Source: a virus. From it: a stretch of DNA of 64,000 bases. Made by a program: the position numbers and the translations under genes. This document shows positions 7,349-57,477 of the stretch, piece after piece. The stretch spans positions 1 to 64,000 of IMG/VR virus record IMGVR_UViG_3300007735_000779; one strand, 5' to 3'. Position 1 is the first letter of the stretch; each line of letters begins with the position of its first letter. The notes beneath the pieces were generated by a model. It worked only from the letters and a program-made list of their open reading frames with translations. It made no database searches and was not told the origin of the DNA.

Positions 7349-7354
7349 ATGTGC

Positions 7355-8383
7355 ATGGACAATGACGTTAAATTGGATTTTTCGGATGTATTGATTGTTC
7401 CTAGAGTAAGTGACGTGAAGTCAAGAAAAGACGTAAGTCTTGAAGTAGGAACAAATTTTAACTGCGGATCTAGATGGGATGGCGTGCCAATCATGGCAGC
7501 TAACATGTCTACGGTCGGTACACACGAAATGGCTCTTGTGTTGTCAGAATACAAGATAGTCACCTGCCTTAAAAAAGGCGGAGAGTACTATATTAATTTT
7601 GCCACAAGTCATCCAGACAAAGAAAAATATGTTTCATTGACTCTTGGTTTGGATGCCGAGAGTAAATTGTTTGTTGATAGTTCTGAGATTTCCGATCCTA
7701 CGTTTGTTTGCATTGATGTTGCAAATGGATACATGACAGAATTTCATAATTTTATAAAGAAAGTGAGACAGAAATGGCCGAAGTCAATACTGATTGCCGG
7801 AAATGTTGTGACCCCAGAGGGGGTGTTGGCGCTGTACGGTGCTGGAGCAGACCTCGTAAAGGTGGGAATTGGGTCGGGATCGATGTGCCTGACACGACGA
7901 GTGGCCGGAGTGGGGTATCCTCAACTCTCGGCGGTTCTAGAGTGTGCGGAAACAGCCGCAGCGTTAGGTATTGGGATCGTATCTGATGGTGGAATTGTAT
8001 ATCCTGGTGATATTGCAAAATCTTTTGTGGCTGGAGCAGCTTTTGTCATGGCGGGAGGAATATTTGCGGGACACGATGAGTGTGGAGGAGAGATTCGGCC
8101 ATCTGCCTCGGGGGAACTACACATGCTTCACTACGGAATGTCTAGCAAAACCGCAAACGAAAAGTATAATGGTGGACTTTCCACCTATCGGGCTTCGGAG
8201 GGTCGAACTGTCGAGGTTCCATACCGAGGATCTGTTAGAAACACTGTTCAGGACATCCTTGGCGGATTGCGTTCTGCTTGCTCTTACGTGGGTGCTTTTA
8301 ACTTGCCTGATTTGTATACTTGTGGTAAAATGGTGAGAGTTAATCGCACCATAAACAAAGTCTTTGAAAGCCACGAAATATGA
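7355..8383 (+). CDS. guaC: GMP reductase
   Basis: The enzyme converts GMP to IMP with NADPH, releasing ammonia, and so feeds guanine nucleotides back toward adenine nucleotides. The 342-residue TIM-barrel protein has LDFSDVLIVP at the start, the nucleotide-binding and catalytic loop GIGSGSMCLTR with Cys178, the YGMSS motif at 260-264 and YRASEGRTVEVPY at 278-290. The last two distinguish GMP reductase from IMP dehydrogenase; no CBS domain is present. ATG 7355 is preferred to 7349 because the -10 box ends at 7348, implying a leaderless mRNA. It overlaps the next gene by 4 bp (ATGA). It may supply adenine precursors for an AT-rich genome. Confidence 0.92.
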   Translation: MDNDVKLDFSDVLIVPRVSDVKSRKDVSLEVGTNFNCGSRWDGVPIMAANMSTVGTHEMALVLSEYKIVTCLKKGGEYYINFATSHPDKEKYVSLTLGLDAESKLFVDSSEISDPTFVCIDVANGYMTEFHNFIKKVRQKWPKSILIAGNVVTPEGVLALYGAGADLVKVGIGSGSMCLTRRVAGVGYPQLSAVLECAETAAALGIGIVSDGGIVYPGDIAKSFVAGAAFVMAGGIFAGHDECGGEIRPSASGELHMLHYGMSSKTANEKYNGGLSTYRASEGRTVEVPYRGSVRNTVQDILGGLRSACSYVGAFNLPDLYTCGKMVRVNRTINKVFESHEI

Positions 8384-11422: not shown

Positions 11423-11440
11423 ACCCGAGGCTTTCTTTTC
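11409..11440 (+). terminator. Weak possible terminator
   Basis: GCCTC at 11409-11413 can pair with GAGGC at 11427-11431 across a 13-nt loop, followed by TTTCTTTT. It lies between the methyltransferase stop and the tRNA gene. The stem is short, so this is tentative. Confidence 0.3.
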
Positions 11441-11509
11441 CCCGGTAGTGTAACGGTAGCACAAAAGGTTTTGGTCCTTTTGGTCCAAGTTCGAATCTTG
11501 GCTGGGGAA
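11439..11509 (+). tRNA. tRNA-Gln (anticodon TTG)
   Basis: A full cloverleaf can be drawn. The acceptor arm is TCCCCGG with CTGGGGA (one G-U), the D arm has GTGTAACGGTAGCAC, the anticodon stem is AAAGG/CCTTT with loop TTTTGGT (anticodon TTG, reading CAA), and the T arm is CCAAG-TTCGAAT-CTTGG. The discriminator base is A. CCA is not encoded. It suits the AT-rich codon use of the phage. Confidence 0.93.
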
Positions 11510-11510
11510 T

Positions 11511-12805: not shown

Positions 12806-12849
12806 TTTAAAAAGTCTAAAAGCGCCAAAAATTATTTTTGTATAAATGC

Positions 12850-12877
12850 TTGACAAAAGACTTACTTATGGTACAAT
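12850..12877 (+). promoter_or_regulatory. Sigma70-like promoter (TTGACA-16-TACAAT)
   Basis: TTGACA at 12850-12855 and TGG-TACAAT (-10 at 12872-12877) drive the HTH gene. The leader contains AGAAAGG 13 nt before ATG 12904. Confidence 0.8.
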
Positions 12878-12903
12878 ATGCCTCAGAAAGGTTTTATAAA
12901 ACT

Positions 12904-13140
12904 ATGATTATTACTAATACTAAGCGTCCTACTAAGATTCAGCGTGTGTTCGATTATATGGCAGAGGGAAACACTCTGACCCCGGGCAAGGCCCGTTCGA
13001 TGTTCAAGGTCACCAACGTTCGTGCCACCATGCACGACCTGCGGGAAGCATTCGGTAGATTCAACTACCGCCTTGATGTGGTCCGTGAGACGAAGAATGG
13101 TCGCAGCCACTATCGTCTTCGCAACACCCGCCGTCGCTAA
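12904..13140 (+). CDS. Small HTH DNA-binding protein
   Basis: The 78-residue basic protein MIITNTKRPTKIQRVFDYMA contains a helix-turn-helix-like segment TPGKARSMFKVTNVRATMHDLRE (about 26-48), followed by a wing-like strand and Arg-rich end. This is the pattern of small winged-helix proteins of phages. ATG 12904 has a Shine-Dalgarno site (AGAAAGG), whereas upstream in-frame codons overlap the promoter. It is monocistronic, with a consensus promoter and a perfect terminator. A regulatory role is likely; the operator is not identified. Confidence 0.75.
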   Translation: MIITNTKRPTKIQRVFDYMAEGNTLTPGKARSMFKVTNVRATMHDLREAFGRFNYRLDVVRETKNGRSHYRLRNTRRR

Positions 13141-13162: not shown

Positions 13163-13195
13163 AAACCCACCCTAAATTTTAGGGTGGGTTTTTAA
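13163..13195 (+). terminator. Intrinsic terminator of the HTH gene
   Basis: A perfect 13-bp stem (AAACCCACCCTAA with TTAGGGTGGGTTT) closes a 3-nt loop and is followed by TTTAA. It ends the transcript from 12877. Confidence 0.9.
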
Positions 13196-13201: not shown

Positions 13202-13209
13202 TATAAATA
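13202..13209 (+). promoter_or_regulatory. T4-type late promoter (TATAAATA)
   Basis: TATAAATA lies 26 nt before ATG 13236, with AAGGG in the leader: a conventional leadered late gene. Confidence 0.75.
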
Positions 13210-13235: not shown

Positions 13236-16200
13236 ATGATAACAAGAAAATGCTGTTGCACGAATGGTGGATGCTGTGAAGATTATTTGGTAGACCAGTT
13301 TGTCACTTTATTCGATAAAGAGATGGACAGTGCAGTTCCTGTATCACAGGATGATCTTATAACTTTAAAGATCAATAGACCCGGTGCTTTAAATAAATCT
13401 AAAGAATATGCATTTTCTACAAATGGAAATGGACATTTATCTTGTCCTCGATGCTGTAGTGCATGTACTATTCAGGGGTGTGAATGCGGACCTTTTGTCC
13501 CGGAGATCAGTACAAATTGGGATATAGGTTCGGAGTATTATGGAGCTAATAAATGTATACCTTGTTGTTGTGTTACTGATTCTAAAACTGCTTCTTGGGG
13601 ATGTGCAGATACTAATCCGGCTTGCCAAGATGGAACTCCTCTTAGAACCTTTGTTGGTAGTTCACTTCCTAATGTTCCTTCTATATTCAAAAAAATAACA
13701 AATAAAATAATAAAAGAACCCAAATCATTTTTTGACAAATATAAAGCAATTTCACTTTCTCAAATTGAAAAACAATCTAAATCTATATTACTAACTCAAG
13801 AGAAAAACGAAAAACAAACTAAAATTTTTGAAAAAAAGAATAGAAAAAACGAACAGTTTAAGACTTCTTTAGAATATACAAGTTTGTGTAAAAGTTGTTT
13901 AGAAAAAAATAAAATTGATATTAATTGCATATACAATAATAGTCCAGAGTGTGCTTCAGCTGCCACTCAAATGTGTGAGCAATGTGGAGAAGAGTGCAAT
14001 AGATATTGTGATCCTGTATACGGAGGAACAGAAACTCAAATAGACAACGTTAGTACTTTATTGAATAACGTTAATTATCAAAATAAATTGGTACCTTTAG
14101 CGGCAGAACAAGATACTGCTTCTGTTTATTTGGGCGAAACTAAAGTTGAATCTTTTGCGATGCCACCAGACGGCGGAAACGGCGGTAACCCTGGAGGCGG
14201 AGGAAACCTACCAGAACAAGAACTTTGTAAGGTTTGTCTTTTTACTTCTGGAACCGCTCCCGCTCCACCAATTTATTTTATCTATAGATATTCTTATTGT
14301 AATTTTGTTTGGTACCCACCAGAATGGATTTTTGACTATAATCCAGCTCCTTCACAGGGCGCAAGTTTTTTCAACAATGGTTTAGCCAAAAGTTGTGATT
14401 ATATGTATGGGCGTGTAAACAGTGATATAGGTGGTGGGGCAAACACACACGTCTCATGTCTTGTTAATAAATTTGATCAACCACAATTTTGCGGTAAAGA
14501 TGCTGGAGCTTATCCGTGTCAATGCAAATCATTTCCACATTTGAGTGGTGGACTTGTTGATACGGTAAGACGAAACTATAATTTTTCACAAAAAGAATTT
14601 TTTGGAGGGTTTATTCCTTCAAAAAACCCATTTTTGCCACAAATGAAAGTATCCGAAATTGGATGTTGTTTTTGCTTTACGTCTAGCTGGACAAGAGGTC
14701 CAAATGAATGTGACACTGCTGGTGGTTTTGATCAAATGCGAAGTCAATACACGGCATATCCTTATGCAAGTGGATATGGACGGGGCTATCAAATTTACGG
14801 AACAAATTGTGTAGTAAGCGGAGGTGGCAAAGAGTTTTATAATCCACAGTATAAACTCTATTGTTTTAACCGAGGAATGTCTCCATATTTAAGTAGAATA
14901 GCCCAACAAAGATACGTTCCGGCATTTGATATTATGTACTATGGTTCTGCTATTCCAGAATCACAAGAAACATTAGGAGCATATTACCAATCGGCTCAAA
15001 TTTTAGATAATGGGACAGAATGGACAAAATTAAGATTTACAAAATTATACAATAAAAAATCTTCTCTTTACCAAAAGCTTGTTGGAATTATTTCGCTTGA
15101 ACACCACTTTGAATCCTGGGCATATCACAGCAAAGCGGCATTTTCCACTTCTCCTCCGCTTTTGATGAATCATTGCAATGTGTTGCTTACTCCATATGAA
15201 AGACCATATGCAGGCACCGTGAATGAATGTTCTTTTCAATGGGATCCAAGAGCAGCAATGCGTTGGCAGATTCAAAGATCTCTTCCTCGAAATGTTATAT
15301 ATGGATCTTCGGGCGTTCCTATATTTTTCTCAGATTTATATGCATTTGAAGAATTGAGCAAAAGAAAAGGTATTTTGATTGCAGGTGAAGAATTTGACGG
15401 TGGAAAGTTTTTAGAAAAATTTTATTTGTATTTCTTTAATGGATTGGGCAATAAGGGAACTTCAGGCGAACCTTTAATTGAGCCCTCAACGGTAGATGAC
15501 TACAATTATGTTACGGATTGCATAAAGGCTATGATAAAAAATAATATTATCAGCATAAAAGATCATGCTGATGATATTAGAACAGAATTGATTGAAGCTT
15601 TAGATGAAATTTTCTTTGAACCGAGCGACACGGAAGAACAGTTTCCAATATTTGACACTCTTTTTGTTGAAACGCAAATTGGTGGAAGAAGTGGATATTT
15701 GTATTTAATAAAATTTATCAAAACTCTTGCTGGATTAGATCCTACTAAATTTTTGCCTTTATCTCAAATAAAAGAACTTATAACAGTAACATTAATTAAA
15801 AAATTAATAAACCCTAGATCTAATAAACGAGGAGTTCCCGCTCAGATGTTTTGGGGCCCTCGTCGTGTAAAACTTGTTCCTACTCCAGAATCTTCGGGTC
15901 TTACGGCATGGGGTTGTACTCAAAACGGATGTAGTTCCTCCAATCCTTCTCCGTTGAATGTACCAAATATCCCAAATGAACAATACATAAATGTTTTCTC
16001 TGGTGATAGAACAAGTTTTTCCATAACTACTACTGGTAAAGTTTTAATCACAGGAAACGAGGCAGATCTTCAGCCTTGGCCAAATAATCGTGGCACTGAT
16101 GCAGATAATAATAATTTTAACAGCTCTATAGCTGCCATACCAGACCATCTTGGAATTGTACAAGATTTAGAACCAATTCCCGCAGATAGAAAAGATGGAC

Positions 16201-19200
16201 GGGTTATTAAAGTATCTTCAAAATCAAATTTTGCTGTTGCTCTAGTTTCTTATGATAACGAAATTCCAATTGGAACACATTTAGGAAAAGACGGAAGCAA
16301 TGCTTCTGTTTCTGATTTGTTATTAGATTCAAATTCTGGAATACAAGACGAGACTTCGTTTGATCGTGTCTACCATGACTCATATTCTGGATTTAATACA
16401 ACAAATCCAAATCCAGATTATTTTGGCGAAGGAATATCGGGATATCGACTAAAAGCATGGGGCCCAGACGTAAATATTGGAATTTTTAGAAGTGATAATG
16501 AGTTAAGTTATTTTTACCCTACAAGTTTGTTTGATATTAGTTTTAACTTTCCTCTTAAAAATCGATATAAAATCTGGAAAGATGTTGCGGCAGGAGTAAA
16601 ACACTGTTCCGCAATAACAGCTGACGGATTTTTATTTGATAGTATTGCATCCGACGATAGTATTGCAAAATTTAAAGGACCCAGTTATTCAACATCTTCC
16701 GGTGATTCTCTTATAAATTATTATTACAAAAATCTTCCCAAACCAGATTATTTTTCTCAACAAGAGTGGAATGATTTAATTTCTTGGAGGGCTATACATT
16801 GTAATTGCCCAAATAGTACAATCAAGCCAGTTGTTGATATACGATGTCGTTTATTTAAAGTTGCAACAAATGATGAACAAAATCCATATCCATATTATAA
16901 TAATCTTGAACCAGATCGTCCTACTTTTACAGACGTAGGTGCTGGGCACTACCACACAATTGCAGTTTCTTCTGATCAAAATATTATTACTTATGGTAAA
17001 TATTATAAAGTTAAACCAGATGGATCTATTCTTGGACCAACAGAAACAGATCAAACAGGAAACACTGGAATAGAAGGTATTGGTGCCTTTACGCCATCCT
17101 CTATTTTGTCTCCTGATAGATGGACTATTGGAGGACTTACATATTGCGCCGGAATAACTTTATATACAACTGCAACAAAAACTAATGCAAGCGTTCAAGT
17201 ATTTGATGTTGATGGTGGTCCCGATTATAGTATGGCAATACTAGGAGGTCCAGGATCTCCAAGTACCGTAGCTGTATGGGGCCATAGTGAAATGGTATCT
17301 GCGCTAAATGGAAATGAATATGCAGGACTGACGGCTATAGCAACAAAGTCATATGATAGAATTGATCGTATTTCTGCTGGTGCAAATTCATTTGCCGTGC
17401 TTTATAGAAGAAATAATAGCTCGCGTAAATTAATGGATATTTTTGTTAGACCAAGCAAAAAAGAAGATTCTACTTACGACTGTGGTTTAACTGAATTTCC
17501 AATTAGTGCTTACCAAGATGTTGCAATGGGATATGGCCATGGTATAGGGATTGTTGAGCAGGGATATAAAGCAAATGTTTGGAATGGAAGGTCATTTAAC
17601 ACATACACCGGACACGATACGCTTCAATTTGCAGGATTTTCCGACCTTCCGTTATACTTTAGAAGTCAAGCATTTTTTAGATGTCTTCCCGGTCACTGGG
17701 ATATGTCTAAGTGGCTTTTTGGAAGAACATGTAATCAAGTAGGATCCGTAAACCCACAAAATGTTATTCTCCAACCAGATAAATGTAGTATATATTGGAG
17801 AAAAAATGAAAAGAATCTATGTTATACCGGGTTTCCACAATATTATTGGATGAAAACTGCTTGGAGGCGTTATTGTAAAGTTACACCACTCCACTCTAGA
17901 GATCCCGGTGGTGACGGATGTGGACTGTTGCGCGATGCGGATGGACTGGACCATTTAGACCCGGAGAATTGGAACGGAACCGGCCCAGCAGATGAGGGTA
18001 TAATAGATTATGGAAATCGTCAATTAAATACTTTAATAGGCGGTTGTTATTCTGGGGCTGGTGATATTTGTTGGATGGGCGATGGATCTCCCAGTTCTTT
18101 TGCGTATCAAACTGGCTATGTTGATGGTAGTGGTAAACGATGTATATGCCAAGATCCATGTGGATGTGAACCTCCTCTATCAATACAATCTGCTACTGCG
18201 TATGAATATAAATGTAGGGATGACATTCAATATGTTGCCCCAGATTGTTTTGGATATGTTATTGGAAGAGCAGGGTTTAGTTCAAACAAAGATTATTTTG
18301 TACAATCACATAAAACTTTTGGAAGCATAAATCAATTATGTTGCGGTGTAGTTAACACAAATATTACTTCTTTTTACTATGCCAAACGTTGTTATTATTA
18401 CAGATATAATAAAGATACTGATTTATATGAAGTCAACAATGCTCCTTTGAAATATAGAACGTACTATGCAGGAGATAAAAGAGATGAACCAAACCCCGGT
18501 GCAACTTCTGCGACTTTTATTAATTATACAATGACCCCAGAGGATGCCATTCCAAAAACTTATCAAGTAGACTGGGTTATGCCGTATCCTTTGGTATATT
18601 GTGGTGGAGATAAATTAAGAAAAATAAAAATAAACATAGCTTTGTCTACAGGGTTAAGAGATTGTAATTGTGCTTTTACTTGTACCGCTGAAGAAGCATG
18701 CAGAGGAACTTGCGCTTGCAACACGGGCGGAGGTGATGTTTGCCGGATTCCAAATCCTGGGGCTGTACTACTCGGACCTGGAGGTTGGCTGTATAACCCA
18801 TCTGCTACTTGTACTACGGATGGTGGACAAATTAAAACGGTAGGGTCTGATGGTCTTTTAGAGGACTCAATATACCATCAGGATGAAGTTTTATACCTTA
18901 AAGCAGGTTCTGCTGATGGTGGATTGGGACCTTTGGTAGAATTTGGTCCGTATACAGGAAGATTGCCTCCGGGGTTTAGCGCAGCTTGTTATACTGGACC
19001 AAATTGCCCTTGTCCTAATTACGATGCACACTGTAATGGATGTGATTTGCAATGTACAATGGAATCAGTATATGATATTGTAAGAGAATATACTTTAGAT
19101 GATTTGGATTTGTATGTTCCAGCAGATGCAAAACCTACATACGATGAAGATAGTAAAAATAAATTATATCGAGTATATGAAGAAATACCTTCTAGGTATA

Positions 19201-19388
19201 ATCTTCCTGGATTTAATGGAGCAACAGGAGATCCGTTGTGTTTTATTGGAGGAGTCACGGATGTTCCCAATGGAGGATGTGACCCCGATACCTCAAGTGC
19301 TGGAACGGATTTCTTTAGAGCGTATGTTTACCAAGGACAACCATATCTGGTTGCAGGAGATTTTAATTGTGGTTTGTTCACAGGATAA
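13236..19388 (+). CDS. Giant cysteine-rich, RCC1-like repeat virion protein
   Basis: The largest gene of the window (2050 residues) starts MITRKCCCTNGGCCEDY. Residues 1-280 have dense Cys clusters (CPRCCSACTIQGCECG; CIPCCC) broken by a Lys-rich helical stretch at ~165-215. A Gly-rich linker is near 310. Residues ~890-1450 hold at least seven degenerate RCC1/beta-propeller-type units, such as DVAAGVKHCSAITADG (~1116), DVGAGHYHTIAVSSD (~1233), RISAGANSFAVLYRR (~1378) and DVAMGYGHGIGIVEQG (~1428). The C-terminal third again has Cys-rich knots (CICQDPCGCEPP; CPCPNYDAHCNGCDLQC). A late promoter and AAGGG precede it. It is probably a virion surface or tail-fibre protein; the role is inferred. Confidence 0.8.
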   Translation: MITRKCCCTNGGCCEDYLVDQFVTLFDKEMDSAVPVSQDDLITLKINRPGALNKSKEYAFSTNGNGHLSCPRCCSACTIQGCECGPFVPEISTNWDIGSEYYGANKCIPCCCVTDSKTASWGCADTNPACQDGTPLRTFVGSSLPNVPSIFKKITNKIIKEPKSFFDKYKAISLSQIEKQSKSILLTQEKNEKQTKIFEKKNRKNEQFKTSLEYTSLCKSCLEKNKIDINCIYNNSPECASAATQMCEQCGEECNRYCDPVYGGTETQIDNVSTLLNNVNYQNKLVPLAAEQDTASVYLGETKVESFAMPPDGGNGGNPGGGGNLPEQELCKVCLFTSGTAPAPPIYFIYRYSYCNFVWYPPEWIFDYNPAPSQGASFFNNGLAKSCDYMYGRVNSDIGGGANTHVSCLVNKFDQPQFCGKDAGAYPCQCKSFPHLSGGLVDTVRRNYNFSQKEFFGGFIPSKNPFLPQMKVSEIGCCFCFTSSWTRGPNECDTAGGFDQMRSQYTAYPYASGYGRGYQIYGTNCVVSGGGKEFYNPQYKLYCFNRGMSPYLSRIAQQRYVPAFDIMYYGSAIPESQETLGAYYQSAQILDNGTEWTKLRFTKLYNKKSSLYQKLVGIISLEHHFESWAYHSKAAFSTSPPLLMNHCNVLLTPYERPYAGTVNECSFQWDPRAAMRWQIQRSLPRNVIYGSSGVPIFFSDLYAFEELSKRKGILIAGEEFDGGKFLEKFYLYFFNGLGNKGTSGEPLIEPSTVDDYNYVTDCIKAMIKNNIISIKDHADDIRTELIEALDEIFFEPSDTEEQFPIFDTLFVETQIGGRSGYLYLIKFIKTLAGLDPTKFLPLSQIKELITVTLIKKLINPRSNKRGVPAQMFWGPRRVKLVPTPESSGLTAWGCTQNGCSSSNPSPLNVPNIPNEQYINVFSGDRTSFSITTTGKVLITGNEADLQPWPNNRGTDADNNNFNSSIAAIPDHLGIVQDLEPIPADRKDGRVIKVSSKSNFAVALVSYDNEIPIGTHLGKDGSNASVSDLLLDSNSGIQDETSFDRVYHDSYSGFNTTNPNPDYFGEGISGYRLKAWGPDVNIGIFRSDNELSYFYPTSLFDISFNFPLKNRYKIWKDVAAGVKHCSAITADGFLFDSIASDDSIAKFKGPSYSTSSGDSLINYYYKNLPKPDYFSQQEWNDLISWRAIHCNCPNSTIKPVVDIRCRLFKVATNDEQNPYPYYNNLEPDRPTFTDVGAGHYHTIAVSSDQNIITYGKYYKVKPDGSILGPTETDQTGNTGIEGIGAFTPSSILSPDRWTIGGLTYCAGITLYTTATKTNASVQVFDVDGGPDYSMAILGGPGSPSTVAVWGHSEMVSALNGNEYAGLTAIATKSYDRIDRISAGANSFAVLYRRNNSSRKLMDIFVRPSKKEDSTYDCGLTEFPISAYQDVAMGYGHGIGIVEQGYKANVWNGRSFNTYTGHDTLQFAGFSDLPLYFRSQAFFRCLPGHWDMSKWLFGRTCNQVGSVNPQNVILQPDKCSIYWRKNEKNLCYTGFPQYYWMKTAWRRYCKVTPLHSRDPGGDGCGLLRDADGLDHLDPENWNGTGPADEGIIDYGNRQLNTLIGGCYSGAGDICWMGDGSPSSFAYQTGYVDGSGKRCICQDPCGCEPPLSIQSATAYEYKCRDDIQYVAPDCFGYVIGRAGFSSNKDYFVQSHKTFGSINQLCCGVVNTNITSFYYAKRCYYYRYNKDTDLYEVNNAPLKYRTYYAGDKRDEPNPGATSATFINYTMTPEDAIPKTYQVDWVMPYPLVYCGGDKLRKIKINIALSTGLRDCNCAFTCTAEEACRGTCACNTGGGDVCRIPNPGAVLLGPGGWLYNPSATCTTDGGQIKTVGSDGLLEDSIYHQDEVLYLKAGSADGGLGPLVEFGPYTGRLPPGFSAACYTGPNCPCPNYDAHCNGCDLQCTMESVYDIVREYTLDDLDLYVPADAKPTYDEDSKNKLYRVYEEIPSRYNLPGFNGATGDPLCFIGGVTDVPNGGCDPDTSSAGTDFFRAYVYQGQPYLVAGDFNCGLFTG

Positions 19389-19406: not shown

Positions 19407-19967
19407 ATGTCATACTTAAATAATGCTTTTGTTTCAAGAACATCGTATTCAAGTGATGGGGCTAACAATTTCTCTCATCCAACTCAAGATAAGGTAAATG
19501 GAATAAATCTTAGTGAATTTTCCAAAGTTGATCCAGAGGAAAAAGATATATTATATAAAAAACATATAAACATAAATTTTTCTTTTAAGAAAAGTTTTAT
19601 TGTTAAAAAAGAATATATTGGTTCTGGCGATATAATAGATTTTATTACAAGTATAACTGGTATTAAAAAATTTATTATATGGTGGACAAATGGAAACTGC
19701 GGATGCGAGGCCAGACGTAAAAAATTTAATTCTGTATTGACTTTTGTTTATTTTAAACTTTCTTTAAAGGATACTTCATATCGGGATGAAATCGTTGAAA
19801 ACTTTAAACTTACAAGAAAGAAACAAATTGAAAAAGAATTGTCAGGTAATAATTTGCAATTAGAAGAAAAATATGCAAAAGCATATGCAGAGAGAGTAAA
19901 TGTCAAACCACCAAGCGCAGTAAGAAGTCCATCTAAAGGATGTGGCTGTTCCGCTAAAAGAACTTGA
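19407..19967 (+). CDS. Phage protein with C-terminal Cys motif (ITGIKK..CGCEARR)
   Basis: The second half of this 186-residue protein has SGDIIDFITSITGIKKFIIWW followed by GNCGCEARRKKFN. This helix-plus-CGC-x-x-R pattern occurs in uncharacterised phage proteins. The C-terminus ends KGCGCSAKRT. The first 45 residues are Ser/Asn-rich. It directly follows the giant Cys-rich gene with an AAAGG site between, so it is likely co-transcribed and may be its partner. A bound metal through CGC/GCGC is possible. Confidence 0.65.
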   Translation: MSYLNNAFVSRTSYSSDGANNFSHPTQDKVNGINLSEFSKVDPEEKDILYKKHININFSFKKSFIVKKEYIGSGDIIDFITSITGIKKFIIWWTNGNCGCEARRKKFNSVLTFVYFKLSLKDTSYRDEIVENFKLTRKKQIEKELSGNNLQLEEKYAKAYAERVNVKPPSAVRSPSKGCGCSAKRT

Positions 19968-20011: not shown

Positions 20012-20311
20012 ATGGAAATAAAATATTTTAAACTGTTTTCGGGTGAAGAGATCATTACAAGAGCCAAAAAGGTTGAATCTGGCTGGTATGTTGAAGACCC
20101 AGCAATGATTGTTCACTTGAAAGATTATAAGCTAGGTTTGGCGAATTGGTTGCCCTATACTAGAATTAAAGATGGTGCTGTTGTTCCCGATTCCGCTATT
20201 CTGATGTACACGGACGTTGCAGATGATATGGTGCAGTATTATGGAACTTGGGCCGACCCAAACATGGTCGTTGACTCTGAAAATGTAAAGACAGAGACTG
20301 AATCAGTTTAA
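20012..20311 (+). CDS. Sm-like (SGEE-motif) small protein, paralog 2
   Basis: The 99-residue protein MEIKYFKLFSGEEIITRAKK then WYVEDPAMIVHL and LGLANWLPYTRI closely parallels the gene at 9729 (SGEEI, DPA-x-I, a Gly-Leu-x-x-W block). An Sm-like small beta barrel is inferred from strand pattern. The consensus sigma70-like promoter directly upstream suggests early expression, unlike the neighbouring structural genes. Function is unknown. Confidence 0.75.
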   Translation: MEIKYFKLFSGEEIITRAKKVESGWYVEDPAMIVHLKDYKLGLANWLPYTRIKDGAVVPDSAILMYTDVADDMVQYYGTWADPNMVVDSENVKTETESV

Positions 20312-20322: not shown

Positions 20323-20604
20323 GTGTTTAAAGGCAAATATAAAAAACTATTAGCAGACGGTTCTTTGGCTGTATATGTTGCGGGAGATGTAGTGATCTTC
20401 CATGGCAAATTATATACAGCCAAAGAACCTGTTACTTTATCGCCTGTAGAACAGTCGCCATCGTGGTTGTTTTCTGGAAACACAGAAATATATAATTCTT
20501 CAAATCCTCCTCTTGATCCACAAGTCGGTCAAATCTGGAGCAAAGACGGAAGATTTTATTCTTATTATTATGACGGATCCAACTATAGTTGGGTGGAAAT
20601 TTAA
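20323..20604 (+). CDS. Small carbohydrate-binding-like (CBM5/12-type) protein
   Basis: This is a 93-residue protein. Residues 12-50 (LAVYVAGDVVIFHGKLYTAKEP ... SPSWLFSGN) follow the small chitin-binding CBM5/12 pattern: Y-x-x-G-D-V-V-x-x-x-G-K-x-Y-x-A, then a Trp. Residues 62-93 (PQVGQIWSKDGRFYSYY and W-V-E-I) resemble the short aromatic modules at the ends of phage fibre proteins. GTG 20323 is chosen from the 5-nt distance to the late octamer. A minor fibre or surface-binding role is inferred. Confidence 0.6.
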   Translation: MFKGKYKKLLADGSLAVYVAGDVVIFHGKLYTAKEPVTLSPVEQSPSWLFSGNTEIYNSSNPPLDPQVGQIWSKDGRFYSYYYDGSNYSWVEI

Positions 20605-21929
20605 CCGGTTTGAATTATAATTTCTAAAACTGAAGTAGTTTCTTTTTCAAGTTTTAGATATATATTTGTGTTTAGCGCCAAAAGAGAGCCAGCGTAAATA
20701 AATGCGGCTCCTTCTACACCCGGAGTTCCATTTAAATAGTATTTTGAAGTAAGAGGAATGGAGCATGCACTATCAGCAAATACTGATACCTTTGTTCCAA
20801 AATTTCTTGCATCAGAAAGATCTATTTTAAAATTTAAACTTTCATATACGGTTGAATATGGTATTAGTAATGTTCCAGTTGTAACCGTATCAACTATAAT
20901 TTCATTAAAGGTTGTGGTTGTTTGCAATTCTGGAACTTGAAATTCCGCACTTACAACAAAATCTGTAATAGTTGTTGTTTTGTACACAAGGTGATATATT
21001 CTAAGCAACTGCAAAGAAACTGTTCCGCTTACAGGAGTAATTGTTGTAATGTTTAGATTCTTTAAACTTGTATTTGGATACCAAAAATAGTTTAAGGTAT
21101 ATTCTGAATTTAAAAGAGTACGAAGAGTAAATTGCTTTATATTTTGATTTTCTATAAATTTAGAAAATACTCCAGGATAATCTGCAACAATTTTAATTAC
21201 ACCATTTATGGTCTCATCATAGTTAATAACATTGGTGTTTGGGATACCACGCATGTATGTGTAGACCAAACTATTTTGAAAGTATAAATTTTCGTTTGTT
21301 ATTGATTCTGTTGGATCTAGATATACAGCCTCAGTTCCGTCATTCAAGTTAATGTAATTTTTAACTTTAATTCTTTTTACGTTTAAAGTGCTTTTTTCAA
21401 CTTCAATATATTCTTCAAAGTTAAAATCTGATCCATATAAACCAAGATATTCTAGATTAAGCGGAGCATCATCTGGAAGCTTAGACAAAAGAATATTGGC
21501 AGTAGCACCTTTTATTGCAGTAAACTGAAGTGGCGAAGTAAAGAGATTTTTGTCGTATATACCCGAAGTTATTGATGCGGTGCCACTTAACCCGGAAAAA
21601 TACAAAAATTCGTTGTATGCTCCTGTTTTTCCTTGAAGTGTAAACTGCCCACTCCAAGTTGTCTGGGCACCTGTGTCAATATTTGAATAGACTCCACCAG
21701 AAAAAGCCAGAGTGTTTCCAGTTGACAAATTGTCAAAAAACAGTTTTAAAAACTTTAAATCCGAAGAATTCTTGCTATGTGAATAGTTGAAGAAAAAACT
21801 ATTTCCGCTGCAAAGAACATGCGGAGAAGAGTTTAAAATTCCTTTGGTCAAGCATGGGTCTGCAGTAGAACCAACAAATTCTAAAGTAAAAGATTGTGTT
21901 GATTTTACTATACTTAATGCATCAGCCAT
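20601..21929 (-). CDS. Beta-rich structural/adhesin-like protein
   Basis: The 442-residue protein is rich in Ser, Thr, Asn, Phe and Leu with alternating hydrophobic strands throughout and almost no charged helices. That is typical of fibre or decoration proteins. Its N-terminus (MADALSIVKSTQSFTLEFVGS) looks like an attachment strand; no enzymatic motif is present. It lies 3 bp after another structural gene on the minus strand and converges tail-to-tail with the CBM-like gene (4-bp overlap). It is probably a virion component. Confidence 0.6.
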   Translation of the reverse strand: MADALSIVKSTQSFTLEFVGSTADPCLTKGILNSSPHVLCSGNSFFFNYSHSKNSSDLKFLKLFFDNLSTGNTLAFSGGVYSNIDTGAQTTWSGQFTLQGKTGAYNEFLYFSGLSGTASITSGIYDKNLFTSPLQFTAIKGATANILLSKLPDDAPLNLEYLGLYGSDFNFEEYIEVEKSTLNVKRIKVKNYINLNDGTEAVYLDPTESITNENLYFQNSLVYTYMRGIPNTNVINYDETINGVIKIVADYPGVFSKFIENQNIKQFTLRTLLNSEYTLNYFWYPNTSLKNLNITTITPVSGTVSLQLLRIYHLVYKTTTITDFVVSAEFQVPELQTTTTFNEIIVDTVTTGTLLIPYSTVYESLNFKIDLSDARNFGTKVSVFADSACSIPLTSKYYLNGTPGVEGAAFIYAGSLLALNTNIYLKLEKETTSVLEIIIQTG

Positions 21930-21931
21930 GT

Positions 21932-22867
21932 TTAGCTAGCCATGTATGATATTGCTTGTGAGGAAGTTCTAGCACGAATATAAATTTTATTAAGATTTGT
22001 TATATCCAAGAATACGCTTTCTCCGGGATCAAGCTCATACCCAAGGCTGGCTACTCCGTCCGAATTGATGTAGATCAAGTCGGTATTCAAAGCAGATGCC
22101 TTCATCTGGATTCCGTTTCCTGTGGTGTATCCTGAGGGATATAAAGAAGTAACTCCAGTTGTTGCGGTCGTTCGTCCTGCAACGAAAGCGGTCGGTCTTC
22201 CAACTCCATATGCAATGAAGTTATTGTTCAAAGTTACCAATTGGCCATAGATTCCCGTTAGGCCATTGGTAATATTTGTGTCGTAAATATTTACTGTACC
22301 GGAAACTCCAGCAACTACCGGATATCCACCGCTGTTACCTTCAATACGAATGGCAGAAGTTGATCCATAGTTCTGTACGTAGATAACTGGGTTAATGCTG
22401 GCGGTTACGGTAATGTCTTGTACGGAAACGCGTATTGCGCTTCCTGACATTCCTACGGCTACACCAGCTGAACTTACGAGAGTTGTAGGAACAAAGGTAT
22501 TTCCATTATAACCATAAATTTTGATGCTATCTGTATTGTAGTTTAGTGGAATTCCTCCAGTGATCGCCAGTGGAGCTCCAGTTGTTCCCAAAATACTTAC
22601 CGTTCCCTGTATTCTTACGGGATCTCCTGCGCTGTTACCGACGACGATTACCGGGTTGGTAAAGTTTACGATGTTCGCAGTGACGCCTGCTGATAAGATT
22701 ACAGGGAATGGATTTGTCGAGCTTACGATGCTGGCCGAACCAGTATCGCCGTATGCCATCTTGTATACCTGGTAGTGAGCTCCACCTACAACGTTTGTTG
22801 CTATAGAAGCGGTATAACCAGTTGCGGCATTAATAGGAATGTTTGGTGTATTTGCAGGTGTAGCCAT
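21932..22867 (-). CDS. Virion structural protein, Gly/Thr/Ser-rich
   Basis: The 311-residue beta-rich protein contains YQVYKMAYGDTGSASIVSST and many short Val/Ile-Gly-Asn strands. The C-terminal ~70 residues (from NGIQMKASALN to IYIRART) look like a distinct beta sandwich. The pattern matches surface or fibre-associated proteins of T4-like environmental phages. A minus-strand TATAAATA at 22888-22895 gives a 20-nt leader. It forms an operon with the downstream 442-residue protein. Confidence 0.65.
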   Translation of the reverse strand: MATPANTPNIPINAATGYTASIATNVVGGAHYQVYKMAYGDTGSASIVSSTNPFPVILSAGVTANIVNFTNPVIVVGNSAGDPVRIQGTVSILGTTGAPLAITGGIPLNYNTDSIKIYGYNGNTFVPTTLVSSAGVAVGMSGSAIRVSVQDITVTASINPVIYVQNYGSTSAIRIEGNSGGYPVVAGVSGTVNIYDTNITNGLTGIYGQLVTLNNNFIAYGVGRPTAFVAGRTTATTGVTSLYPSGYTTGNGIQMKASALNTDLIYINSDGVASLGYELDPGESVFLDITNLNKIYIRARTSSQAISYMAS

Positions 22868-22887: not shown

Positions 22888-22895
22888 TATTTATA
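22888..22895 (-). promoter_or_regulatory. T4-type late promoter (TATAAATA)
   Basis: TATAAATA on the minus strand, 20 nt before ATG 22867, drives the two structural genes ending at 20601. Confidence 0.75.
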
Positions 22896-51164: not shown

Positions 51165-51842
51165 ATGGTTATAGATCTACGTGAAATACCTACCGTTTGG
51201 ATTAATTTAGACCGGGCAACAAAAAATGCAGCAATGATGGATGCAAGATTCCGTCATCATAGGTTTAAAAATACCCATAGAAAATCAGCAAGAGAAATTG
51301 CGCCACCTGATGACACACCAGACACAATAAAACATTATGTTGGATGCGCACAATCTCATATTGATATTTTAGATGATGTAAACTATTCACATCCTTTATT
51401 AATTTTAGAAGATGATGCCGAATTTACTCCAGACTTTCATCCTATGATTGAAGTCCCAGATGACACAGACGCAGTTTATCTTGGCACATCTGCTGGAAAC
51501 CCTCACTATCTCACAAAACGAGTAAACAAATATTACATGAGAATTGGCAAAATTCTAGCAACTCATGCTATTCTGTATTTAAATCCAGAATACAAAAAAG
51601 CAGTTTCTGACATTGCAAAGATATTTGCATATAGACTGAAGGTTCCATTTGATAATGGATGTGCACTTGTACAGGAACGCTTTAATGTTTTGACTCCAAA
51701 TAAACCTTTTTTTGTTCAAGCAAATGAAAGAGAAAGCGCAAACCAATGGGAAGTTATCACCTCACGCCCCTTGGTAGATAAAAATAGTGACTTTCCTGTT
51801 CGTGAAAAGAATGTGCAATTAGCAATACAGGTGCCAGCATGA
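51165..51842 (+). CDS. GT25-like glycosyltransferase, paralog A
   Basis: This 225-residue protein has the GT25 pattern: IPTVWINLDRATKN at the N-terminus, GCAQSHIDILDD, then PLLILEDDAEFT (the acidic EDD that binds metal and nucleotide sugar) and IEVPDDTDAVYLGTS. ILATHAILYLNPEYKKAVSDI and a Pro/Phe-rich C-terminus follow. GT25 enzymes transfer galactose or glucose to LPS or protein. It is first in the glycan island; two other copies follow at 52624/52665 and 53982. It overlaps the next gene by 4 bp. Confidence 0.8.
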   Translation: MVIDLREIPTVWINLDRATKNAAMMDARFRHHRFKNTHRKSAREIAPPDDTPDTIKHYVGCAQSHIDILDDVNYSHPLLILEDDAEFTPDFHPMIEVPDDTDAVYLGTSAGNPHYLTKRVNKYYMRIGKILATHAILYLNPEYKKAVSDIAKIFAYRLKVPFDNGCALVQERFNVLTPNKPFFVQANERESANQWEVITSRPLVDKNSDFPVREKNVQLAIQVPA

Positions 51843-52627
51843 TATCATGTCAAAGTTTGGGATCAATGGGAAGACTTGGAAATCAGATGTTTCAGTATGC
51901 AACTTTGTATGCTACTGGAAAAACGTTAGGATATGAAATAGGTGTTCCATATCACATACGCAGCAAAAACGATAAGTTAGATTTTTGCCTTTCCGATGCC
52001 TTTAATCTTTCTGCAAAAGATTCTTCTGGAAAGTATTTTGGTTCTCTTTATATGGAACCGCAGTTTAATTACGATTCTAATATTTTAAATATACCAGATG
52101 GGTGTGATATTAAAGGGTATTTTCAAAGTGAAAAATATTTTAAACAGTATAGATATGATTTACAAGATACTGAATTTAAATTTAAAGACATTATCAACAA
52201 ACAAGTCGAACAGCTGTTTGCTGGCAATGATTCTGAATTAATATCTGTTCATATCAGACTTGGAGATTATTTACAGCTGCAAGATTGCCATCCCGTCTGC
52301 TCTGTAGATTATTATAAGAATGCTTTGGACTTGCTTCCAAAAGATTGTCAAATTGTTTTGTTTAGTGATGATTATCCCCAAGCTTTGCAACTGTTCAAAT
52401 CATTTGGTTTGAATGTAATGCTTACGGGCGGAAATGATAAATTTGTTGATATGTGTATGATGACTAAATGCAATTATCATGTAATCGCAAACAGTTCTTT
52501 TAGTTGGTGGGGAGCTTGGCTGTCTAAAAGTAAAAAAACAATTGCTCCCAAGACCTGGTTTGGCAATTCTCCTAATGTTGCAAAAAATTGGGATGATATC
52601 TACTGCGATGAATGGGAAGTGATATGA
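51839..52627 (+). CDS. GT11 alpha-1,2-fucosyl(colitosyl)transferase
   Basis: This 262-residue enzyme transfers L-fucose, or L-colitose, from the GDP-sugar to a galactose 2-OH. All GT11 hallmarks are intact: GRLGNQMFQYA (11-21), the HIRLGDY site for GDP (138-144) and NSSFSWWGAWL (218-228). FSDDYPQALQLF is also typical. The GDP-donor can be made by the products encoded at 57478-60604. It is followed by GT25-like and GT6 genes. Its TGA overlaps an ATG (52624) of the next, frame-interrupted gene. Confidence 0.93.
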   Translation: MISCQSLGSMGRLGNQMFQYATLYATGKTLGYEIGVPYHIRSKNDKLDFCLSDAFNLSAKDSSGKYFGSLYMEPQFNYDSNILNIPDGCDIKGYFQSEKYFKQYRYDLQDTEFKFKDIINKQVEQLFAGNDSELISVHIRLGDYLQLQDCHPVCSVDYYKNALDLLPKDCQIVLFSDDYPQALQLFKSFGLNVMLTGGNDKFVDMCMMTKCNYHVIANSSFSWWGAWLSKSKKTIAPKTWFGNSPNVAKNWDDIYCDEWEVI

Positions 52628-53294
52628 TAATTGATATACCATCAGTAAAAACGTTTATGTAAACATGGACAATAAAGTTGAACGAAAAGATCAAACAGAA
52701 AAACTGTTATCTAGTTTAAAGTTTACTGATTACCAACGTTATTCCGCAAAAACTGGACAAAATGCTATAGAAGGTTGTGCATTATCTCATATAGACATTT
52801 TAAGATCAAATAAAAATAATACTCCATTTCTAATATTAGAAGATGACGTAACAACTGGAGAATTTTATAAAAAAATAATTGAAGTTCCAGATGATGCAGA
52901 TGCAATTTATTTGGGATATTCTATGTGGGGGTTTGACAAAGAACGAGCTAAAAAATTTTCTAGAATGGATAATCCAACTTCATTTAAAAAAATTACAAAT
53001 AACATATACAAAATATCAAATATGTTATCTACACATGCAATTATGTATTGCAGTGAACGATATTCAACAGCTGTAGCTGATATTATGGAAACTATTTGGA
53101 ACCAAGAACAGTGGCACTGCGATTATGCATGTGCTTTAATACAGGAAGAGTTTAACGTTTACGCGCCTTCTAATCCATATTTTTTCCAATATGATTATTG
53201 GACAATGCCTTGGACCTGCGTTTCTTTTGATAATTTTTATACAACAAATTGTGAATACAAAAAGGCAATAAATGACCCAAGACTTAATCCCTAA
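52624..53294 (+). CDS. GT25-like glycosyltransferase, paralog B, apparently frameshifted near the start
   Basis: From ATG 52665 the readable protein has 209 residues and shows GCALSHIDIL, FLILEDDVTTG, IEVPDDADAIYLGYS and LSTHAIMYCSERYSTAVADI, as in paralog A. Its N-terminal strand is missing from that frame. ATG 52624, coupled to the preceding stop, reads MIIDIPSVK, and a -1 shift at the A5 run 52647-52651 continues NVYVNMDNKVERKDQ, which restores the GT25 start I-x-x-V-x-V-x-x-x-x. The gene therefore carries a one-base indel (true or sequencing) or a slippery site. Starting at 52665 would lose a core strand. Confidence 0.7.
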
Positions 53295-53976
53295 TGTAGG
53301 TTTATTGATTGTAGCTACAAATAAATATATTTCTTTTGTTCAAAACTTGGTAGATAGTGCTGATAAATGGTTTTTACCAGAATGTAATGTTACTTATTGT
53401 GTTTTTACCAATACTCCAAAACAATTAAATACGTCTAATTCTTTCAATATGATGCATATTGAGCATGAGCCTTGGCCTGCACCAACACTTAAAAGATATG
53501 ATTATTTTGATCAATATGCAGATTATTTAAAAAATTTTGATTATTTGTATTATTGTGATGCCGACATGCGCTTTGTTAATTCAGTTGGAAGTGAAATTTT
53601 AGAAGAATTGGTTTCTACTTCACATCCGGGATTTTGGGATAAATTAAATTTACAGTTTTCTTATGAAAGGCGTCCAAATTGTAAAGCATATATTCCATTT
53701 GGAAAAGGAAATGGATATTATGCTGGTGGTTTTAACGGTGGAAGCTCAAATGAGTTTTTAAAAATGGCTAAAACAATTGTGTATTGGCGAAAAGAAGATG
53801 AAAGAAACAATATAATTCCAATTTGGCATGATGAAAGTTATATGAATAAATACCTATACCTGAATTTGCCTACAAAAGTACTAAACCCAAGTTATTGTTA
53901 TCCTGAAGCTTGGAACTTACCTTTTGAAAAAAAATTGTTGGCATTAGATAAAAATCACAGTGAAATGAGAAATTAA
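53272..53976 (+). CDS. GT6 (ABO blood-group family) glycosyltransferase
   Basis: The 234-residue protein has the family 6 pattern in order: RYDYFDQY, YYCDADM with the metal-binding D96-A-D98, YERRP (131-135), GYYAGGFNGGSSNEF (148-162) and WHDESYMNKY (185-194). GT6 enzymes add alpha-1,3 Gal or GalNAc, and ABO-type ones use Fuc-alpha-1,2-Gal as acceptor. The A-G-G tripeptide lies where human A and B enzymes differ; Gly in the third place resembles the GalNAc (A) type. No membrane anchor is present, as in bacterial and phage relatives. It overlaps the previous gene by 23 bp. Confidence 0.9.
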   Translation: MTQDLIPNVGLLIVATNKYISFVQNLVDSADKWFLPECNVTYCVFTNTPKQLNTSNSFNMMHIEHEPWPAPTLKRYDYFDQYADYLKNFDYLYYCDADMRFVNSVGSEILEELVSTSHPGFWDKLNLQFSYERRPNCKAYIPFGKGNGYYAGGFNGGSSNEFLKMAKTIVYWRKEDERNNIIPIWHDESYMNKYLYLNLPTKVLNPSYCYPEAWNLPFEKKLLALDKNHSEMRN

Positions 53977-53981
53977 TTTTT

Positions 53982-54626
53982 ATGAAAATAAATTTAAATG
54001 AAATTTTAACTCTATGGTATGGTGGAATAAAACCACATCGTCTTGAATTGATTCAAAATACCATAAGTGAGTTGAATTTAAAGGCAAAACACGTACCCAC
54101 AACTGTTTCCGATGCTGCTGTTGGATTTGTTAGAATTGGCTGTTCAAGTAGCCATAAAAATGCATTAGAAGAAAGCATGAAACATTCTGGTCCTGTTTTA
54201 ATTTTAGAAGACGACGCTAGCCCAAGCAAATGGTTTACAAATACAATTGAAATACCCGATGATGCAGATGCTTTTTATGCAGGAACTTGTTTAAATGCAA
54301 TCCATCCTTATTGGGAAAAAATGGGTCCTGATGAAGGATGTTGTGGTGAACTGGAAGTATTAGGATCATATGATAATTTTTATAAAATTTCTAAAATGCT
54401 AACCACACATGCAATTATATACATTTCAGACAAATATAAAAAAGATTGTTATGATTTATTGCATGAAAATAATGGAAAAAGGTATTTGGATGTTTTATTT
54501 GCTAGCAGAATGCACAAATATAATGTATATGCACCAAAATATCCTTTATTTTATCAAAATTGCGAAAAAGAAAACTATGATGCATACATAAAAACCATAA
54601 CACCACTTGTAAGTATATTAAATTAA
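53982..54626 (+). CDS. GT25-like glycosyltransferase, paralog C
   Basis: The 214-residue protein is the third copy: GCSSSHKNALEES, PVLILEDDASPSKWF, IEIPDDADAFYAGT and MLTTHAIIYISDKYKKDCYDL. It shares the EDD core but is otherwise diverged from A and B, so it may have another acceptor or donor. It lies 5 bp after the GT6 gene. Confidence 0.75.
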   Translation: MKINLNEILTLWYGGIKPHRLELIQNTISELNLKAKHVPTTVSDAAVGFVRIGCSSSHKNALEESMKHSGPVLILEDDASPSKWFTNTIEIPDDADAFYAGTCLNAIHPYWEKMGPDEGCCGELEVLGSYDNFYKISKMLTTHAIIYISDKYKKDCYDLLHENNGKRYLDVLFASRMHKYNVYAPKYPLFYQNCEKENYDAYIKTITPLVSILN

Positions 54627-54636
54627 TATACTAATT

Positions 54637-54644
54637 CATAAATA
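54637..54644 (+). promoter_or_regulatory. Possible late promoter (CATAAATA) inside the glycan island
   Basis: CATAAATA ends 9 nt before ATG 54654, the first gene after a 27-bp gap. It would allow late expression of the downstream genes. Confidence 0.45.
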
Positions 54645-54653
54645 TTTTTAACT

Positions 54654-55280
54654 ATGCAAGAAGTATTTTATAATAGTATTAAGTGGGAAAATTCTGATTT
54701 ATCTAATTGGCATGTTGAAAATACAAAATATAATTTTTTATATAATTATAAATTTGATACAAACTCTACAGTTGTTGATATTGGATCTTATAATGGCACT
54801 TGGTTAAAAACCATTACTAGCATGTATGGCTGTTATGGGTTGGGTTTGGAACCCGTGAATAAATTTTATTTAGAAAGTTTAAATCATATTAACGATAAAC
54901 TCCAGTTTATAAATGCTGGTATAACTATAAAAAATGAGCATAAAGTAAAAATAAATTTAAACGTAGACAGCACTAACATTATGTCTACTGGAGGTGACTG
55001 TGAAGTTACTTTAATAAATGTTATAGATTTTTTAAATAATCTTTGTTTTAAACAAATAGATTTACTTCAAATTAATATTGAAGGATACGAATATGAGTTA
55101 TTGCCATATATGATTGAAAATAATTTATTTAATAATATTAATAATTTACAAATACAATTTCACTCAATATCCAATTTAAGTGAAAACAAATATATGGATA
55201 TAAAAAAGAAATTAAATGAAATAGGATTTAAAGATACTTTTGATTTTAAACTTGTCTGGTATGGAGCAACAAAAATATGA
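54654..55280 (+). CDS. FkbM-type SAM-dependent methyltransferase
   Basis: The 208-residue protein has the AdoMet site VVDIGSYNGTW (about 41-51), an acidic residue after the second strand (LGLEPVN) and the FkbM hallmark DLLQINIEGYEYELL near residues 137-151. FkbM-family enzymes in glycan clusters O-methylate sugar residues. It overlaps the epimerase gene by 4 bp. The sugar methylated here is unknown; a terminal O-methyl cap on the glycan is a reasonable guess. Confidence 0.82.
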   Translation: MQEVFYNSIKWENSDLSNWHVENTKYNFLYNYKFDTNSTVVDIGSYNGTWLKTITSMYGCYGLGLEPVNKFYLESLNHINDKLQFINAGITIKNEHKVKINLNVDSTNIMSTGGDCEVTLINVIDFLNNLCFKQIDLLQINIEGYEYELLPYMIENNLFNNINNLQIQFHSISNLSENKYMDIKKKLNEIGFKDTFDFKLVWYGATKI

Positions 55281-56179
55281 AATATTTGGTTACTGGCGGA
55301 TCGGGATTTATTGGATCTAATATAGTAGATTTTCTTGTTTCAACGGAAAATGAAGTTATTGTTATAGACAACGAATCTTCTGATGCTCATGATAAATTTT
55401 ATTACAACTTAAAGGCAACTTATTATAAACACTCTGTAGTGGATTATGATATGTGCTCTGAAGTTTTTAAACTCCATAAACCTGATTATGTATTACATTT
55501 GGCAGCAGAAGCAAGAATTCAAAATTGCATTGAAAATCCTACTAAAGCATATGAAACTAATTTAATGGGCACTTTGAATATTTTGGCACTTTGCAAAGAA
55601 TATAAAGTTAAACGATTAGTTCTTTCAACCACATCTGCAATTTATGGTTTAAAAAACACAGGAGCTTTACATGAAGAAATGCCCGCTGACTGTTTAAATT
55701 CATATTCTTTAAGCAAATGGAACGCGGAACATGCATGTAAAATATACAGTTCAATGTATGGGGTGGATACTGTATGTTTAAGATATTTTAATGTATATGG
55801 TCCTCACCAGCCAATAAAAGGTCCATATGCACCAGTTATTGGAATTTTTTCAAAACAACTTTTATCTAATGGACCATTAACGGTGGTTGGGGATGGCGAA
55901 CAAACTAGAGATTATATTCATGTCTTTGATGTTGTACGAGCCAATGTTATGGCCACTAAATACCAAGGACAACTTAACGGAGAAGTATTTAATGTTGGGA
56001 CAAATAAAGCTTATTCTGTAAATGAAATAGCCAAAAAGCTTTCAACTAATATTAAATATTTACCACCAAGAAATGGAGAAGCTAGAGCTTCTCTTGCTAA
56101 TATAGAAAAAATTCAAAATTATTTTGGTTGGAAACCAACAATTGAATTGATGAAATGGATTGATTTAAATTTTAAATAA
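55277..56179 (+). CDS. NAD-dependent sugar-nucleotide epimerase (GalE-like)
   Basis: The 300-residue extended SDR enzyme has the Rossmann motif GGSGFIGS (7-14), LAAEARIQNC, TTSAIYG (118-124) and catalytic Tyr143/Lys147 in YSLSK. RYFNVYGP, VVGDGEQTRDYIHVFDV and a substrate-binding C-terminal region follow. These fit UDP-hexose 4-epimerases (UDP-Glc/UDP-GlcNAc type). It could make UDP-Gal or UDP-GalNAc, the donor for the GT6 enzyme two genes upstream. The exact substrate is not determined by sequence reading. Confidence 0.87.
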   Translation: MKYLVTGGSGFIGSNIVDFLVSTENEVIVIDNESSDAHDKFYYNLKATYYKHSVVDYDMCSEVFKLHKPDYVLHLAAEARIQNCIENPTKAYETNLMGTLNILALCKEYKVKRLVLSTTSAIYGLKNTGALHEEMPADCLNSYSLSKWNAEHACKIYSSMYGVDTVCLRYFNVYGPHQPIKGPYAPVIGIFSKQLLSNGPLTVVGDGEQTRDYIHVFDVVRANVMATKYQGQLNGEVFNVGTNKAYSVNEIAKKLSTNIKYLPPRNGEARASLANIEKIQNYFGWKPTIELMKWIDLNFK

Positions 56180-56191
56180 GAAATGTTATAA

Positions 56192-57112: not shown

Positions 57113-57121
57113 GGTTTATAC

Positions 57122-57475
57122 ATGTCTAATATAGCAGCAGCAATTGAAAATACTATTAAAGAACAAGTTAATTTTATTTTAAACAATAAAGTAAAAAATG
57201 TACCAGATTTGCCAGTAGATATTATTGTTACTGATAATTTGGCAGAAATTATTGAAAAATTAGTAATTCTTCATATTCGAACTTGGTTTTTAGAAGATAT
57301 GGCAGGTGTAGCTAAAAACGATGAAGAACTTGCAAATATAAAAAGAAAAGTAGACATTTGTTTTAAACAAAAAAGACCAATGTATATTCAAGCTATAAAT
57401 AAAATTATAGATGATGCTATTGTTAACAATAAATCTCTTATAGAAAATTCTGTTAAAATTTATAAAAATCATTAA
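57122..57475 (+). CDS. Small helical protein (DUF4254-like)
   Basis: This is a 117-residue helical protein. Its segment LAEIIEKLVILHIRTWFLEDMAG, followed by DEELANIKRKVDICFKQKRPMYIQAINKIIDDAI, resembles the pattern of DUF4254 proteins that accompany LPS-sugar genes. Its biochemical role is unknown. It is 2 bp upstream of the dehydratase/aminotransferase-fold gene. Confidence 0.6.
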   Translation: MSNIAAAIENTIKEQVNFILNNKVKNVPDLPVDIIVTDNLAEIIEKLVILHIRTWFLEDMAGVAKNDEELANIKRKVDICFKQKRPMYIQAINKIIDDAIVNNKSLIENSVKIYKNH

Positions 57476-57477
57476 AT

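Follow-up and report, generated by a model that had tools for sequence, protein, structure and literature searches.

The appendages of phages are generally expected to contain few cysteines, given that their folding takes place in the reducing cytoplasm, and the distal adhesins of the gp38 type of T-even phages are glycine-rich proteins encoded in a variable adhesin locus. The propellers of the RCC1 superfamily (RCC1, RPGR, UVR8, HERC1/2; PF13540, PF25390) have seven blades and consist of RCC1-type repeats. In phages, RCC1-type proteins have been detected by mass spectrometry in the particles of W70 (Vequintavirinae; phrog_4219) (PMC11370258) and in the Rak2-like phage GAP32 (gp1) (PMC5259590), and phAPEC6 encodes eleven RCC1-like proteins (PMC7247149). 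Propellers also occur in receptor-binding or baseplate proteins at the phage periphery, namely the receptor-binding protein of phi11, P2 of PRD1 and gp131C of phiKZ (4GBF) (PMC4901313). A preliminary description of the locus analyzed here regarded RCC1-like propellers as rare in phage fibres; they are indeed uncommon in phages, but the cases of W70 and GAP32 show that their presence in virions was already known.

The locus belongs to a stretch of 64,000 nucleotides (hereinafter the window) taken from a virus record of 67,333 bases. The virus is T4-like, as judged by its capsid, portal, terminase, sheath-stabiliser, baseplate and gp32 genes, and the nearest named relatives of these genes are found in cyanophages. 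The gene psbA, a potential clue to the host, is absent from 18 contigs from this lineage and related ones, all of which are fragments. The window also contains an IMP dehydrogenase/GMP reductase-like gene (7349-8383, plus strand), a tRNA-Gln (TTG) gene (11438-11510) about 1.7 kb before the gene of interest and, between the helicase and SbcC-like genes, a low-GC (28-30%) sugar cassette (51165-59587, plus strand) that encodes glycosyltransferases of families 25-like, 11 and 6, an FkbM methyltransferase, GDP-mannose dehydratase/epimerases and a DegT aminotransferase.

The gene at 13236-19388 (plus strand) encodes a protein of 2050 amino acids with 85 cysteines (4.1%), compared to about 25 expected from the other 50 genes of the window, which average 1.2% cysteine (binomial P about 3e-21), so that the open reading frame and its cysteine-rich character are as originally reported. 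A scan of viral contigs with this single protein yielded no match, and its relatives surfaced via the neighbors of gp32: this route led to 62 loci, several of which encode a cysteine-rich protein at the same place, and the subsequent alignment scan delineated 35 loci that correspond to 19 distinct proteins, that is, the window protein and 18 other nonredundant relatives. All 19 come from contigs of uncultured viruses and share about 27% identity; the full-length proteins span 1802-2372 amino acids with 3.0-4.4% cysteine. Nothing significant was found in tblastn searches of 50,697 phage records with the whole protein or the propeller, or with the glycine-rich, collagen-like, propeller-less, 442-aa and 311-aa proteins described below, and a pattern-based scan of bacterial genomes detected no relatives. 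In PHROGs, the window protein matches none of phrog_4219, phrog_16766 and phrog_7220, and none of its relatives matches phrog_4219; weak matches link two relatives to phrog_16766 (0.013) and one to phrog_7220 (0.0027).

That the middle of the protein (residues 888-1465; 15897-17630, plus strand) forms an RCC1-like seven-bladed propeller is well supported by sequence profiles and structural modeling. The Pfam family RCC1_2 matches the window protein above its cut-off (23.3 bits vs 22), as it does three relatives (L089, L091 and L099), whereas the WD40_RLD matches (E-value 2.8e-8 for the window protein, and between 3e-10 and 6e-6 over this protein and its relatives) remain under the 150-bit cut-off of that family; in the window protein and in each of five relatives examined, one or the other family is detected, in some cases with scores under the curated cut-offs. 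Comparison of the family profile with PDB chains reaches HERC, UVR8 and RCC1 (E-value down to 1.7e-8, for HERC). In the AlphaFold2 model, there are seven strand groups between residues 917 and 1445, many with pLDDT above 70, and the Foldseek matches with E-values of 1e-6 or better are to propellers of RCC1, RCC2, RPGR, UVR8 or HERC wherever the description tells; gp131C of phiKZ (4GBF) also appears among the Foldseek matches (E-value 0.011). In BFVD, a fold search detected no match with an E-value below 0.001, the sole plausible RCC1 match having a probability of 0.96.

The preliminary description proposed at least seven RCC1-like units between residues ~890 and 1450, and exactly seven can be placed within residues 888-1450, with no fold other than the RCC1 propeller emerging from the Pfam, PDB profile and Foldseek searches. 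On the plus strand, the units are located at 15984-16061 (unit 1, residues 917-942), 16194-16271 (unit 2, 987-1012, completed by the strand 1070-1076), 16575-16652 (unit 3, 1114-1139), 16926-17003 (unit 4, 1231-1256, the site of the RCC1_2 match), 17199-17288 (unit 5, 1322-1351), 17355-17432 (unit 6, 1374-1399) and 17508-17585 (unit 7, 1425-1450), each of them being represented by strands in the AlphaFold2 model. The family profiles of units 1, 3, 4, 5 and 7 match one another, with probabilities of up to 97% for the best pairs, against a 99th percentile of 9% in a column-shuffled control; unit 2 matches weakly (26-29%; to unit 7), and unit 6, for which the profile comparison is not significant, was assigned by position and pattern only.

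This propeller differs from the rest of the RCC1 superfamily in its long loops (about 570 amino acids instead of about 400) and in its insertion in a cysteine-rich viral protein, with no sign of a Ran-exchange or chromatin context. With the RCC1-type proteins of W70 and the Rak2-like phages, which were seen in particles, there is no detectable relation by PHROGs or tblastn, and the window propeller, unlike theirs, is part of a cysteine-rich protein of 1.8-2.4 thousand amino acids. The peripheral proteins of phi11, PRD1 and phiKZ contain propellers of other types or sizes, do not share the leader described next and are not reported as cysteine-rich (PMC4901313).

The start codon is preceded by a terminator-like hairpin followed by a T run, read directly from the sequence (13163-13193, plus strand), and, shortly upstream of the ATG, by an exact match to the T4-type late promoter element TATAAATA (13202-13209, plus strand). 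By itself, TATAAATA is no rarity (11 occurrences in the window vs 6 expected); what many relatives retain is a comparable hairpin, the spacing of the promoter and the order hairpin, promoter, gene. The proposal that a late promoter precedes the gene thus holds, and the conservation of TATAAATA and the terminator among the relatives points, on in silico grounds, to late expression together with the structural genes. The protein itself begins with a leader module (residues 1-90, MITRKCCC...CC...FVTLF...VSQDDLI.LKINRP; 13236-13505, plus strand), the pattern of which occurs once in the window and in none of 100 shuffles. Nine relatives encode the CCC leader as a small gene of its own (77-134 aa) that follows the same promoter region; this gene ends in a stop, after which a new ATG starts the large protein. 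Frameshifting or read-through of the split N-terminal gene need not be invoked because a new ATG follows the stop and the frame differs in some of these relatives.

Searching for TATAAATA with M-x-x-K/R-x-CCC behind it retrieved 47 viral loci, 5 of which are very short chance open reading frames (L145, L156, L161, L167 and L180); the reversed pattern had no match in 30 records. Most of the remaining loci head long cysteine-rich proteins, and a few are separate small CCC genes. The proteins fall into the RCC1 type with a propeller-less variant (R'), a glycine-rich type, a collagen-like type and two single proteins. In L032, for example, an MPKKACCC start behind the same promoter opens an 850-aa glycine-rich protein that has 38 cysteines and is encoded between the same flanking genes. 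The slot occupied in the window is held by the RCC1 and propeller-less versions and by one glycine-rich and one collagen-like version; the other versions are encoded nearby, behind a different small gene, and many of the glycine-rich and collagen-like ones occupy a second position a few kb away. Further CCC-leader proteins, unrelated to the other types and with 6-7% cysteine, are encoded in L139 (448 aa) and L154 (truncated, 324 aa). A capsid protein 65-86% identical to that of the window was found in 18 contigs; the ten contigs without a match may simply lack the region. All contigs that yielded a capsid gene are members of a single T4-like lineage.

The two propeller-less proteins (L147 and L152) are collinear with the window protein in the leader (1-32), the middle (534-815) and the post-propeller region (1469-1624), with about 110 residues where the window protein has about 650 including the propeller. 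The propeller therefore is not the defining part of the protein: given that the richness in cysteine and the CCC start are common to several slot proteins, it appears to be an optional inserted domain within a constant cysteine-rich design, which the preliminary description overlooked. The glycine-rich (type D) body matches PF12810 just below the cut-off (E-value 4.6e-5) and resembles the T-even gp38 type in both the glycine-rich body and the variable adhesin locus, whereas the slot proteins differ from gp38 in being cysteine-rich, in carrying the CCC leader and in having no sequence match in phage records.

The gene does not vary on its own. In trees of 15 contigs, the backbone (gp32 and hub) forms two clades, whereas the cysteine-rich protein and the 442-aa protein encoded at 20601-21929 (minus strand), for which no family was found, both form the same three other groups with high support, except that in the 442-aa tree, where types A and B are supported at 100/100, type C reaches only 72/62. 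In approximately unbiased (AU) tests, the backbone data reject the module types (p 9e-79 and 3e-11) and the module genes reject the backbone clades (p 1.5e-82 and 6e-8, the latter for the 442-aa gene), these values being indicative because the groups were named after viewing identity tables and cysteine patterns. The module history is followed by the genes for a 186-aa protein with an invariant CGCE.RR...FN and a C-terminal C.C (19407-19967, plus strand) and for a 99-aa, phrog_527-like protein (20012-20311, plus strand); between the module genes, a 93-aa protein (20323-20604, plus strand) with a weak match to CBM_5_12 shows higher identity within the module type than within the backbone clade. 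A 198-aa protein with 12 cysteines (6%), encoded behind the glycine-rich type in L134 (7013-7609) and L135 (8971-9567), is possibly the counterpart of the 186-aa protein.

The backbone history is followed by the 215-aa gene at 12181 upstream, the tube gene downstream and the genes that flank the slot on both sides. The constant left flank is a 100-aa gene (12838-13140, plus strand; clade 1 support 100/99.9), for which a grouping by module type is rejected in the AU test (p 8e-5 for A and 3e-4 for B), and the constant right flank is a 311-aa gene (21932-22867, minus strand) with TATAAATA upstream at 22888-22895 (minus strand). The module therefore extends approximately from the promoter to about 21929. 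The boundary of exchange falls between the 442-aa and 311-aa genes (20601-22867, minus strand), both of which are conserved in the lineage; profile searches with these two proteins and the 186-aa protein gave no match. Thus, the genes at 13236, 19407, 20012 and 20601 are inherited jointly as a single module, with a history incompatible with that of the flanks, and some relatives have gp32 proteins that are 88% identical yet share only 27% of the cysteine-rich protein. A tree constrained to unite the clade-1 members of type A is not quite rejected (p 0.051 and 0.064), so that long-kept alleles may have contributed beside exchange, and the three types might go back to ancient alleles, some of them since lost, rather than to recent exchange.

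Swappable host-attachment parts usually behave in this way, with quite different proteins in one gene slot behind a common start sequence. Given the placement behind a late promoter, the exchange of the module and the swappable bodies, the best reading of the gene appears to be that it encodes a phage surface protein. Specifically, we propose, with a probability of roughly 0.66, that it forms the core of an exchangeable adhesin module for host attachment, expressed late and contributing to a surface appendage of the virion in a T4-like lineage. Under this proposal, in a lineage related to cyanophages, the gene would be expressed late and most likely build the appendage; the M-x-x-K/R-x-CCC leader that heads the different versions would probably dock or mature the protein; the body behind it would be exchanged between versions, the one in the window carrying the RCC1-like propeller as an insert; and the products of 19407, 20012 and 20601, which move with the gene, would probably act as attachment or assembly factors. 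A virion adhesin is favored because it accounts for late expression, linked exchange, fast divergence and replacement of the body, and has precedents among phage propellers; location in the virion, receptor binding, cysteine chemistry and the roles of the partners are what we infer from this pattern.

Cysteine is the most conserved residue type in the alignment of the 19 proteins: 51% of the cysteine columns of the window protein are kept in at least 80% of the relatives, compared to 48% for tryptophan and 27% for glycine, and 14 cysteines are invariant. The clusters that had been named at the two ends of the protein (CCCTNGGCC, CPRCCSACTIQGCECG and CNGCDLQC) are all present, but the best-conserved cysteines lie elsewhere, at least ten invariant or near-invariant ones in residues 331-543 and others at positions 1189, 1499, 1604, 1636, 1702, 1828 and 2045, so that a restriction of the clusters to the ends is rejected. 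The C-terminal, post-propeller cysteine-rich region (residues 1469-2050; 17640-19385, plus strand) has the part 1469-1624 in common with the R' proteins, and residues 1761-2050 are among the more variable parts when close relatives are compared. Some cysteines are lost or gained jointly (894 with 899; 1638 with 1671 and 1703), a pattern that fits disulfides as well as metal sites without choosing between the two; in the proposed appendage, the most likely role of the cysteines would be to stiffen a large protein outside the cell through disulfides or, in part, through metal sites. The numerous CxxC, CxC and CCC motifs, the separate small CCC proteins of the nine relatives and the CGC motifs of the co-travelling 186-aa protein are also what would be expected if the protein were made late, stayed out of the virion and bound metal or redox partners in the host, as a metal store or takeover factor, but the very large size, the glycine-rich and collagen-like relatives and the module exchange, all of which are typical of appendages, make such a role improbable, and Pfam reports no known metal-binding family.

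The propeller itself evokes an internal virion protein that binds or organizes DNA, as suggested for the RCC1-like proteins of phAPEC6 (PMC7247149). This possibility, which we consider less probable still, draws on the detection of RCC1-like proteins in W70 particles (PMC11370258) and on the fold of a 'DNA condensation protein' from Erwinia phage pEa_SNUABM_47, which is matched weakly; however, the DNA role in phAPEC6 was deduced from the name of the domain, the propeller is missing in R' and other bodies occupy the same slot, and an exposed protein would better account for the linked exchange and the fast divergence.

Outside the propeller, the confidence of the AlphaFold2 model is low (means of 47.8 and 49.9). 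A trimeric fibre fold or attachment domain was sought in residues 1-900, for which there is no family or fold match and the Foldseek matches are at chance level (best E-value 1.2). The middle domain (residues about 330-880; 14223-15875, plus strand), delineated by alignment, contains most of the invariant cysteines and the motifs HHFE and KDH..D, with no match in Pfam or among PDB sequences and folds. The invariance of H623, H624, E626, K775, D776, H777 and D780, in a domain that is otherwise about 30% identical across the relatives, could suggest a tail-borne enzyme that degrades surface polysaccharide and is positioned by the propeller, but this is about as doubtful as the internal DNA protein given the absence of an enzyme family or fold match and the alteration of both motifs in the R' protein of L147 (HYFH, RDHRE).

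Returning to the adhesin module, the slot proteins may constitute a class of phage surface proteins, each with the CCC leader and a cysteine-rich body. The leader and the late promoter would stay constant, and bodies without homology to one another (the middle domain with or without the propeller, glycine-rich or collagen-like) would be exchanged behind them; we regard the chances for and against this generalization as evenly balanced. If it is correct, the richness in cysteine across unrelated bodies would serve one purpose, for example oxidative cross-linking or metal hardening after release. It appears that one T4-like lineage has made cysteine-richness the constant of a likely adhesin slot, with the fold behind a short leader changing. 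If so, this lineage would offer a natural set of cysteine-stabilized, swappable surface proteins, a simple search tag for more of them in the combination of the late promoter with M-x-x-K/R-x-CCC, and a testable system for the formation of disulfides or metal sites in phage virion proteins.
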